From: Desulfohalobiaceae bacterium
GTDB taxonomy: Bacteria > Desulfobacterota > Desulfovibrionia > Desulfovibrionales > Desulfothermaceae
NCBI GenBank assembly: GCA_021737615.1
Contig: JAIPDR010000011.1
Coordinates: forward strand, 1-35,912
Direction: 5' to 3'
Length of the DNA stretch: 35,912 nt
Shown here: positions 18,349-20,628 of the stretch, piece by piece
How positions within the stretch are numbered: the first letter of the stretch is position 1
How the letters are laid out: each line of letters starts with the position of its first letter
Notes under the pieces: generated by a model
Database searches by the model: none
The model's input: only the letters and a program-made list of their open reading frames with translations
Told to the model about the DNA's origin: nothing
Made by a program: the position numbers and the translations under genes

Positions 18349-18393
18349 GCTGTCGCGATTTTTCCTTTGCTAACCGTGAATAAGGAGATCAGA

Positions 18394-18852
18394 ATGTTCA
18401 AGAAAATTCTCCTGCTCAGCGGCCTGCTGGTGTTCTTCACCTCCTGTTCCGGGATGCAGAACCCCTTCACGCCGCAGCCAGCAACAAGTACTGACATTTC
18501 GGTTCAGGAGAGTCAATCAGAACCTCCGCCGCAGGACGACAACGCCTACTTCGATTTCGACGATATCCTGATCCCAAGCGACTTAACGCTTGACCGTGAC
18601 AGCTCTATCATCTTCCAAACTTCCCGGATAAAGGCCGGAAAGCTCGAATTTCGCGGCCGAGTCGATCCTGTTTCCCTGTTCAACTTTTTTATCGTCAACC
18701 TGCCTAAAGACAACTGGAGCATCAAAGGACAGTTCAAGTACGGCCATTTTTTGATTATTGCCGAAAAAGCCAGCAAATTTACTGTCCTGAAAATAACCGA
18801 AGGTAACCTCAGAACCACGCTGCAAGTCTGGGTTACGCCCAGGCTGCCTTAA
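18394..18852 (+). CDS. Small uncharacterised lipoprotein upstream of coaBC
   Basis: The 152-residue product starts MFKKILLLSGLLVFFTSCSG, a lipoprotein signal with the modified Cys at residue 18. I chose the ATG at 18394 because an AAGGAG ribosome binding site lies seven bases before it. After a Pro/Gln/Ser linker, the C-terminal half (from about residue 55) is beta-rich. It has an IPSDLTLDRDSS stretch, then FRGRVDPVSLFNFFIVNLPKDNW, and ends in LQVWVTPRLP. The pattern of a GRV-type strand, a short helix and an NW turn looks like a small conserved domain, but I do not recognise a named family. It is four bases before coaBC, so co-expression is likely, though the functional link is unknown. Confidence 0.75.
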   Translation: MFKKILLLSGLLVFFTSCSGMQNPFTPQPATSTDISVQESQSEPPPQDDNAYFDFDDILIPSDLTLDRDSSIIFQTSRIKAGKLEFRGRVDPVSLFNFFIVNLPKDNWSIKGQFKYGHFLIIAEKASKFTVLKITEGNLRTTLQVWVTPRLP

Positions 18853-18856
18853 GCCC

Positions 18857-20077
18857 ATGATCCCCCAGCACTTGACACTCACCCAGTACCAGGGCCGACG
18901 CGTTCATGTGGGCATCAGCGGGAGCATCGCCGCCTACAAAGCCATTGATGTCTGCCGGGCCCTGCAGGCGACCGGGATCGAAACCAGCGCCGTTTTGACC
19001 GCGGCCGGGGCCAGATTCATTACTAAGTGGAGCCTCGAAGCCCTCGGGGTCGATCCGGTTCAGACCAGCATGTTTTCCAGGGAAAATTCGATTTTCGCCC
19101 ATCTGGAGCCCGGGCAGAACGCCTCCTTGATGCTCATCCTCCCCGCCACGGCCAACACCATGGCCAAGCTGGCCGCGGGCATCGCCGACAACATGCTCAC
19201 CTGTCAGGCCCTGGCCTTCCCCGGTCCCCTGCTCATCGTCCCGGCCATGAACCCGAATCTCTGGTTTTCCCCGGCCACGGAAGAAAATGTGGTCAGGCTG
19301 AGCCGCCGGGAAAATGTACGGGTCATGCAGCCGGAAAGCGGTGAGATGGCCTGCGGTGATCTGGGCAGGGGCAAGCTGCCTCCGCTTTTGGACATCTACT
19401 TTCAGGCCTTGAAGTCTCTCAGCAAACAGGACCTGTCCGGTCTCAAGATCCTGATCAGCCTGGGCCCGACCAGGGAGTTCTTTGATCCGGTCCGTTTCTG
19501 GTCCAACCCCTCCAGCGGGATGATGGGAGCGGCTCTGGCCTTGACGGCCTGGATCCGGGGGGCAAAGGTCAGGTGTGTCTGCGGGCCGACCGATGTCTGG
19601 CTTCCAGGGTCTGTGGAGAGACAGGATGTGATATCTGCCCGGGAAATGTATGAAAGCTGCCTCGATTGCTGGCCCGATTTCGACATCGGCTGTTTCTGCG
19701 CGGCAGTCTCTGATTTTCGCCCCAAGACAGCAATGACCCAAAAGTTCAAGAAGGCATCTGCATCCGGATTAAGCGTAGAATTTGACAGCAACCCCGACAT
19801 CCTCAAGGCTCTCGGCGAAAACAAGCGAGCCGGGCAGCGCCTGGTCGGCTTTGCCGCTGAATCTGAACCCGATCTGCTCGTTTTGGCCAAGGAAAAGCTG
19901 GACAAAAAAAACCTGGACCTCATTTGCGCCAACAAGATCAACGAGCCCGGGACCGGTTTCACTCAACCCACAAACTCCATGCTCCTGTTGAACAAAAAAG
20001 GGGAGAGCCGCCAGCTCCCCCTGATGAGCAAGGCCGATATCGGATGGCAGATATGGGACTGGACCTTAAAGACGTAG
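18857..20077 (+). CDS. coaBC: Bifunctional phosphopantothenoylcysteine decarboxylase / phosphopantothenate-cysteine ligase
   Basis: CoaBC makes 4'-phosphopantetheine for coenzyme A: CoaB joins phosphopantothenate to cysteine, and CoaC (FMN) decarboxylates the product. The 406-residue protein has both halves. The CoaC half shows VGISGSIAAYKAIDVCRAL, the His in FAHLEPG, the PAMNPNLWFSPAT motif, and the substrate-closing Cys in GEMACGDLGRG. The CoaB half begins near ILISLGPTREFFDPVRFWSN, then NPSSGMMGAALA, with the catalytic Lys in AAVSDFRPK and GFAAESE later. The last 34 bases overlap the next gene. Confidence 0.96.
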   Translation: MIPQHLTLTQYQGRRVHVGISGSIAAYKAIDVCRALQATGIETSAVLTAAGARFITKWSLEALGVDPVQTSMFSRENSIFAHLEPGQNASLMLILPATANTMAKLAAGIADNMLTCQALAFPGPLLIVPAMNPNLWFSPATEENVVRLSRRENVRVMQPESGEMACGDLGRGKLPPLLDIYFQALKSLSKQDLSGLKILISLGPTREFFDPVRFWSNPSSGMMGAALALTAWIRGAKVRCVCGPTDVWLPGSVERQDVISAREMYESCLDCWPDFDIGCFCAAVSDFRPKTAMTQKFKKASASGLSVEFDSNPDILKALGENKRAGQRLVGFAAESEPDLLVLAKEKLDKKNLDLICANKINEPGTGFTQPTNSMLLLNKKGESRQLPLMSKADIGWQIWDWTLKT

Positions 20078-20628
20078 ATCTTGAGCCCGGGCTGAAGGGG
20101 TGGTATCGCAGCGGCCTTTGCTATTTTTTCCGTTCGCAGAATCCTCAAGATAAACCCGGGGCTTCAGTTCCGCAATCGCCTTCGGCTGCTGCCTTCCCCG
20201 AACCCTGGTCCAGGATATTCAACTCCAGAAAGGCCGAATGCACCTCTGTCTGGACTTACTGGCAGCTGCCCCTAGACCTCGGACCGCAGCCATCGGCGGA
20301 ACGGAAACGGTTATTTCAAAAGATCGTTTCCGCCCTGAACTGGCCGCCGGAGCACCTTGTCTTCTGGCCTCTTTCCGCATTCCACCCCCCTGATCTTTTG
20401 TCCAGAACCGATCTCTTCCGGCAGGGGATCCAACTCTTGAAGCCCTTGTATGTTCTTGTTTTCGGGGATCAAGCCATCGAAGCCCTCTTTCCCGGGGACA
20501 AGAGGACGGCCTATGGCCTTTTCAAAATGGACCAAATCGATTATATCTTTCTCCCTGGAGCGGAGGATATGCTGCCGGACAATAAAAACGCCAAGCGCAT
20601 TGTTTGGAACACCCTGAAAAAATTATAA
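20044..20628 (+). CDS. Uncharacterised protein, distantly like a degenerate uracil-DNA glycosylase
   Basis: From the ATG at 20044 the product is 194 residues (a second ATG at 20053 is equally possible). It starts inside the last 34 bases of coaBC. I recognise no named family with certainty. The C-terminal half follows the order of UDG families 4/5: a helix plus EHLVFWPLSAFHPP where these enzymes have a strand ending in a CRPP-type turn; then LLKPLYVLVFGDQAIEALFPG, like the LIxPxVIxxLG-A-LLG strand-helix; then FLPGAEDMLPDNKNAKRIVW, like the HPS-LLR-K-W end. The GExPGxxED catalytic motif and the catalytic His are absent, so glycosylase activity is unlikely. A binding role is possible. Confidence 0.6.
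   Translation: MADMGLDLKDVDLEPGLKGWYRSGLCYFFRSQNPQDKPGASVPQSPSAAAFPEPWSRIFNSRKAECTSVWTYWQLPLDLGPQPSAERKRLFQKIVSALNWPPEHLVFWPLSAFHPPDLLSRTDLFRQGIQLLKPLYVLVFGDQAIEALFPGDKRTAYGLFKMDQIDYIFLPGAEDMLPDNKNAKRIVWNTLKKL

Follow-up and report, generated by a model that had tools for sequence, protein, structure and literature searches.

The gene that adjoins coaBC in Desulfovibrionales is most likely the positional ortholog of the family 4 uracil-DNA glycosylase (UDG4) gene that occupies this place in other Desulfobacterota, after loss of catalysis. This reading is based on its homology to UDG4 and on the location of UDG4 itself 3' of coaBC in other members of the phylum. UDG4 itself was already known; what is new here is an order-specific ortholog predicted to be non-catalytic. 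The loss of the active-site residues, together with the near-universal retention of the gene, suggests recruitment to a non-enzymatic job, perhaps in DNA replication.

The gene was analyzed within a window of 35,912 nucleotides, i.e., the whole of the stretch examined (contig JAIPDR010000011.1 of the Desulfohalobiaceae bacterium assembly GCA_021737615.1). An open frame on the forward strand (20044-20628) comprises 194 codons plus a stop codon and shares 34 bases with coaBC (18857-20077). An overlap of this length had been reported in a previous reading of the DNA made from the sequence alone (the sequence-only reading), and it is correct for a start at 20044; comparison with relatives favors the second ATG, at 20053, which shortens the overlap to 25 bases. 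Of 86 loci, 49 have a possible start codon at offset -25 relative to the coaBC stop, 32 at -19 and 22 at -34, with several candidates per locus allowed. Within the final 60 bases of coaBC, 80 of the 86 loci contain a possible in-frame ATG, GTG or TTG. From the overlap we infer that coaBC and the UDG4-like gene are probably co-translated. The product starting at 20053 has 191 residues and is composed of an N-terminal peptide (residues 1-26), a linker (27-59) and a domain of approximately 130 residues. The features of the locus are as follows.

18857..20077, forward strand: coaBC, the constant upstream neighbor (TIGR00521, E 5.3e-112).
20053..20628, forward strand: coding sequence of the UDG4-like protein, predicted to be non-catalytic; 191 aa from the second ATG, 194 aa from the ATG at 20044.
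20053..20077, forward strand: overlap with the 3' end of coaBC; 25 bases (34 from 20044), with a possible start at -25 in 49/86 loci.
20053..20130, forward strand: N-terminal peptide, residues 1-26, ending L-x-x-W-Y-x-x-G-L-x-x-F-F; related to the N-terminal peptide of Desulfobacterota UDG4 (hhalign 14.5).
20131..20229, forward strand: linker, residues 27-59; its length ranges from 23 to 124 aa among family members, with 29% Pro+Ala over the family.
20230..20625, forward strand: UDG-like domain without the catalytic residues, residues 60-191; hhalign against the UDG4 profile, probability 95.9, score 64.4.
20251..20277, forward strand: W-T-Y-x-x-L-x-x-D, residues 67-75, replacing UDG motif 1 (GExPGxxED); W in 77%, T in 85%, Y in 99%, L in 90% and D in 100% of 88 sequences.
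20302..20304, forward strand: Arg84, in 95% of 88 sequences.
20362..20370, forward strand: F-W-P, residues 104-106, where UDG4 has the uracil-binding Asn; F in 69%, W in 94% and P in 99% of 88 sequences.
20443..20475, forward strand: P-x-x-V-x-x-F-G-x-x-A, residues 131-141, aligning with P-K-V-I-C-A-L-G-x-x-A of UDG4.
20551..20616, forward strand: the L-P-x-x-x-x-M-L-P-D-N-x-x-x-K-x-x-x-W-x-x-L end, residues 167-188, replacing motif 2 (HPAxLLRxP) and without the catalytic His.

The family is present in 98 of the 101 genomes sampled from the order of the window (Desulfovibrionales); 87 were recovered by single-sequence search, and 5 and 6 of the remaining 14 by profile searches. The family copy of genome G004 is interrupted by a contig end. 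Neither the family nor coaBC was matched in the assemblies of G039 and G042, and, because coaBC is missing too, these look like assembly gaps. A phylum sample of 297 genomes, with up to nine candidates scored per genome, yielded 10 family matches, all within the same order. The viral contigs searched contained no relative of the window protein and none of the UDG4 that the window's genome also encodes. No description of the family or of a coaBC-UDG neighborhood was found in the open-licence literature, although other print sources may hold one. The residue counts given below refer to 88 family sequences; two of these are cut by contig ends, and those exceeding 300 aa were trimmed to the last 260. 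Open frames of 617 and 619 aa at the match in G017 and G072 were considered as possible coaBC fusions, which was rejected since coaBC lies in another frame.

The relationship to UDG4 emerges at the level of profiles. The window protein alone had no Pfam or NCBIfam match at E <= 1 and none in PADLOC, and an earlier profile comparison, using only four UDGs from relatives, yielded a weak score of 28.2 at probability 14. The profile of the 88 family members, compared by hhalign with that of 66 catalytic UDG4s of other Desulfobacterota using full alignments, gave the score and probability listed above for the domain. Restricted to match columns, the same pair scored 53.3; 100 column permutations averaged 12.9 and peaked at 21.4, and the reversed profile scored 15.8. 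A realigned run spanning both the family and the UDG4 proteins gave 49.4 (probability 92.9). The relation to UDG claimed in the sequence-only reading was thereby borne out for family 4. The 66 UDG4s are those of 70 loci that carry GE.PG..E and KC.PP in one frame, and not all of them are linked to coaBC.

The Pfam UDG model (PF03167) narrowly exceeded its cut-off of 24.3 bits with one member (L027, 24.5 bits), and a six-frame PF03167 search reached the same ORF (as L121, which overlaps L027; E 1.6e-4). The family consensus matched this model with E 1.7e-4 but, at 22.1 bits, remained below the cut-off, and weak Pfam UDG matches were obtained for 8 of 39 members (best E 0.0043). Over the 39 members the mean column identity is 21%. 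The best sequence match in a PDB search with the family profile was E. coli Mug (1mtl), which at E 0.54 is not significant. The N-terminal peptides of the family and of Desulfobacterota UDG4 are also related: their hhalign score, given above, was reached in none of 300 column permutations, the best of which scored 10.2.

Other database matches were discarded. By sequence, the window protein retrieved mitochondrial ribosomal mL59/mL64 from the PDB (E 0.17 and 0.28), while the family consensus gave eight matches at E <= 10, the best being NDUFV3 (0.021, over the linker) and mL59/mL64 (0.026-0.029); all were taken as chance. The PHROGs candidates, likewise rejected, were 11 weak families, each matching 1 of 39 members (best E 0.033).

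Structures were predicted with AlphaFold for the window protein and one relative. With the peptide and linker included the pLDDT was 35; the domain alone reached a pLDDT of 47 and a pTM of 0.43, with the element order a-b-a-b-a-b-a. Both models are too weak to confirm the fold, and no weight is given to the comparisons made by structure. A Foldseek search returned 70 matches at E <= 10, none of them at E <= 0.001, and there was no UDG among the 50 matches listed. VIA-align placed 7 of 199 chains at Z >= 2, the last of them being Thermus UDG4 (1ui0; Z 2.0, rmsd 4.5, 100 residues aligned), tied with unrelated chains.

In the account of Thermus UDG4 given in PMC5387724, the pocket is formed by E41, G42, E47, F54, N80 and H155, and N89 and H155 act in catalysis. 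The family has lost these motifs. GExPG of motif 1 is found in 0/88 sequences and KC.PP also in 0/88, the column of the second (catalytic) Asn being unaligned. The column of the uracil-binding N80 is occupied by Pro in 87/88 sequences and by Ser in 1/88. At the column of the motif-2 His (H155), the 88 sequences have D (34), S (24), G (12), A (6), P (4), N (4), E (3) or H (1), and the HP[ASGY] pattern, present in 15/88, never falls on this column. The sequence-only reading had stated that both GExPGxxED and the catalytic His were missing from the window protein, and the family counts agree with it on both points. Three of the [4Fe-4S] cluster Cys columns could be aligned and hold Cys in 1/88, 0/88 and 1/88 sequences, the fourth column being unaligned; C..C occurs anywhere in 4/88 family sequences, compared to 66/66 UDG4s. 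It should be noted that the UDG4 set was chosen by GE.PG..E and KC.PP, and that only its 66/66 values for HP[ASGY] and C..C are independent counts. The order of UDG elements proposed in the same reading holds in part: the P-x-x-V-x-x-F-G-x-x-A strand and the K-x-x-x-W end align with UDG4, but the CRPP-type turn that had been described is absent, as the KC.PP count indicates. Judged from these substitutions, the protein is very probably inactive as a glycosylase.

The new near-invariant residues of the family, numbered from the start at 20053, are Y69, D75, R84, W105 and P106, at the frequencies listed above, and G21 (93%, n = 88) in the N-terminal peptide. Motif 1 can be aligned only to within 1-2 residues; with the invariant Asp placed on the final D of GExPGxxED, as in both the original and the realigned comparison, the E47 column holds Glu in 21/88 sequences. 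The mean net charge of the domain, +1.3 in the family (-6 to 12) and +4.6 in UDG4 (-2 to 12), speaks for a non-catalytic protein, although the two ranges overlap widely.

The explanation that we prefer, with modest confidence in it as a whole, is that this non-catalytic descendant of UDG4 was recruited as an adaptor whose N-terminal peptide docks on a partner in replication or repair. In the ancestor of Desulfovibrionales, a coaBC-adjoining UDG4 would have lost its catalytic and iron-sulfur residues while keeping the C-terminal half of its UDG domain together with the N-terminal peptide and a flexible linker. Around the former pocket, the near-invariant W-T-Y-x-x-L-x-x-D, R and F-W-P would have arisen. 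The peptide would dock on a conserved replication or repair component, with the UDG-like domain swinging on the linker and holding a second partner or DNA. Taken by itself, the assignment of the protein as an adaptor has about an even chance of being right. The neighbors read (queA-like, lipoprotein-like, coaBC, epimerase and ParA/ParB-like genes, all named by eye except coaBC and the epimerase) include no replication or repair enzyme, and the docking partner is for this reason a guess; a part of the replisome such as DnaX is a possible but doubtful candidate.

A protein with the same history might instead serve as a non-catalytic sensor of damage or of DNA structure, using the old pocket to bind DNA or a base but making no cut, and recruiting repair proteins via its N-terminal peptide. 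Descent from a DNA-binding enzyme, the related N-terminal peptide and the near-invariance of residues around the old pocket motifs are all compatible with such a role. The lower mean net charge of the domain relative to UDG4 argues against it, as does the fact that the uracil-binding Asn and the His are gone, and we regard it as unlikely.

The UDG content of the order bears on a further alternative, namely that the protein is still a DNA glycosylase, used instead of UDG4, whose rebuilt pocket accepts uracil or another base and is made up of the W-P pair and the near-invariant Tyr and Asp close to the old motif 1. PF03167 matches above the cut-off were found in 19 of the 101 genomes of the order, compared to 131 of 148 in the phylum sample. 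This scarcity of recognizable UDG in Desulfovibrionales counts against a non-catalytic protein, since it would be odd unless something else removes uracil. The family also replaces UDG4 at the same position, its Y, D, R and W-P residues are nearly invariant (the Asp near the old motif 1 entirely so), and UDG families 1 and 4 are described as already differing in motif-1 residues (PMC5387724). Set against this, the key residues of Thermus UDG4 have been lost together, including the His and both Asn, and the H155S substitution alone is given as lowering the rate by more than three orders of magnitude (PMC5387724). The domain also has a lower mean net charge than UDG4, and an intact UDG4 is encoded elsewhere in the window's genome (L001, contig C106; GEAPGEKED, KCRPPKNRD, HPG), which by eye is without the N-terminal peptide. 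Retained glycosylase activity with a rebuilt pocket is in our opinion quite improbable. In one genus of the order sample (g15), frames with a weak PF03167 match, many of ∼249 aa, are sited away from coaBC.

The interpretation of the gene as a positional ortholog of UDG4 draws on its neighborhood. The UDG4-like gene is located 3' of coaBC and on the same strand in all 86 loci having both genes (85 genomes, G062 with two such loci), and its open frame begins no more than 43 bases after the coaBC stop. One locus (L032), identical to another (L003), was omitted from this count, and in two more (L011 and L080) the stretch does not include coaBC. A recurring linkage with coaBC, which the sequence-only reading had set out as a check, is thus found throughout the loci of the order that carry both genes. 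Outside the order, catalytic UDG4 itself lies 3' of coaBC, on the same strand and within 600 bases, in 42 of 70 Desulfobacterota loci. In four further loci coaBC is 1.0-1.5 kb away, giving 46/70 with coaBC upstream on the same strand; the other 24/70 have no coaBC on the stretch, some of them with only ∼1.3 kb of upstream sequence. The 70 loci are the best-scoring matches, one per genome, from the 131 genomes with a match. Many of the coaBC-adjoining UDG4s of other Desulfobacterota have possible start codons at or near the coaBC end.

Because catalytic UDG4 occupies the same place in other Desulfobacterota, the linkage with coaBC seems older than the degeneration of the catalytic motifs. The adjacency looks inherited rather than functional, and it therefore does not point to a role in CoA synthesis. 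This weakens the proposal that the protein is a regulator or assembly factor of CoaBC, held at a fixed ratio by the overlap. The invariable position 3' of coaBC and the possible starts inside the coaBC end would suit such a role, yet the catalytic enzyme shares the neighborhood, and the 10 family matches among the 297 phylum genomes are confined to the order, whereas coaBC occurs outside it. We consider a CoaBC-directed function very improbable. Directly 5' of coaBC, the window contains a lipoprotein-like ORF (18391-18852, forward strand) for which Pfam and NCBIfam gave nothing at E <= 1; a relative of it precedes coaBC in the same orientation in 53 of the 86 loci, many of which have short flanks. 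An Rfam scan of the window gave no match at the gathering score.

The gene is under purifying selection. Compared with its nearest relative (70% identical), the window gene has a dN/dS of 0.22, and the same comparison gave 0.16 for coaBC, 0.08 for the downstream epimerase gene and 0.07 for the upstream lipoprotein-like gene. Against three more distant relatives, with synonymous sites near saturation, the values were 0.27-0.37. All were calculated by the Nei-Gojobori method, excluding the first nine codons of the UDG4-like gene due to the overlap. No internal stop codons occur in the 88 family matches. The sequence-only reading had called the protein degenerate, which is right as regards the lost catalytic motifs; that it is merely degenerate is contradicted by the purifying selection, by its own set of near-invariant residues and by its order-wide conservation. 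A decaying UDG4 relic heading for loss, for which the lost catalytic residues and a mean column identity of only 21% could be cited, would hardly combine the dN/dS of 0.22 and the lack of stop codons with presence in 98/101 genomes, Asp75 in 88/88 sequences and Tyr69 in 99%.

The family most likely represents the order-wide conversion of a DNA-repair enzyme to a conserved protein without the catalytic residues, and sister lineages still show the ancestral gene at the same location. Should the N-terminal peptide dock on the replisome, the family would shed light on how a UDG fold can turn into a replication subunit, and it would provide a candidate clamp-loader accessory for bacteria without HolC and HolD. 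It also raises the question of how uracil in DNA is handled in Desulfovibrionales, most of which had no UDG above the Pfam cut-off in this analysis.

The DNA polymerase III clamp-loader subunit psi (HolD) has a UDG/Mug-like fold but no catalytic activity and is, alongside the viral case discussed below, another UDG-fold precedent for a catalysis-independent role in replication. In psi as in the family, a short N-terminal peptide precedes a small domain. The peptide of E. coli psi is reported to bind the clamp-loader collar (structure 3gli; PMC11044049), and its register agrees with that of the family, the L-G-I of E. coli psi falling on the family G-L. The similarity scores are weak. When the peptide was compared with three HolDs, the score was reached in 3 of 300 permutations in the case of the family and in 4 of 300 in that of UDG4; with E. 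coli HolD alone the numbers were 2/200 and 0/200, respectively. At full length against three HolDs, the family scored 18.1, no better than chance (4 of 150 permutations as high), over an aligned stretch that is not collinear, and UDG4 scored 21.6, slightly above chance (0/150). PF03603 (HolD) gave no match with the family consensus at E <= 10 and none in the window's genome, and a weak match in 1 of 39 members (E 0.17). Chi (HolC, PF04364) was detected in 0 of the 101 genomes of the order sample. The gene contexts differ as well, the family adjoining coaBC and E. coli holD overlapping rimI. Membership in HolD was rejected in view of the lack of a PF03603 match to the consensus and of chi in the 101 genomes, and HolD is retained as an analogy. 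In the wider Desulfobacterota sample, HolC (PF04364) was found in 14 of 148 genomes.

A more specific version of the adaptor proposal would make the protein a second, independently evolved psi-like clamp-loader subunit. The peptide of UDG4 would already have been seated on DnaX, the repair activity would have been lost, and a chi-free adaptor would have remained, repeating the path of HolD. We think this scenario rather unlikely.

Among active enzymes, the likeness to E. coli Mug lies in the match around the F-G-x-x-A strand and the L-P end (1mtl). The closest relative is UDG4 (TIGR00758, PF03167), which shares with the family the place 3' of coaBC, a related N-terminal peptide and linker, the order of the C-terminal strands and helices, and the P-x-V-I-C-x-x-G-x-x-A and K-x-x-x-W ends. 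In contrast to UDG4, the family has W-T-Y..L..D, R and F-W-P, and it has kept neither motif 1 nor the CRPP/Asn motif, nor the motif-2 His or the Cys residues of the cluster. A parallel to the role proposed here is vaccinia virus UDG, a component of the polymerase processivity factor, for which a catalysis-independent role in replication through protein contacts has been described (PMC1936997). The vaccinia protein is viral and has its own partner, A20; the two are likened by role and not by sequence, the role being described for the viral protein and proposed for the Desulfovibrionales family.
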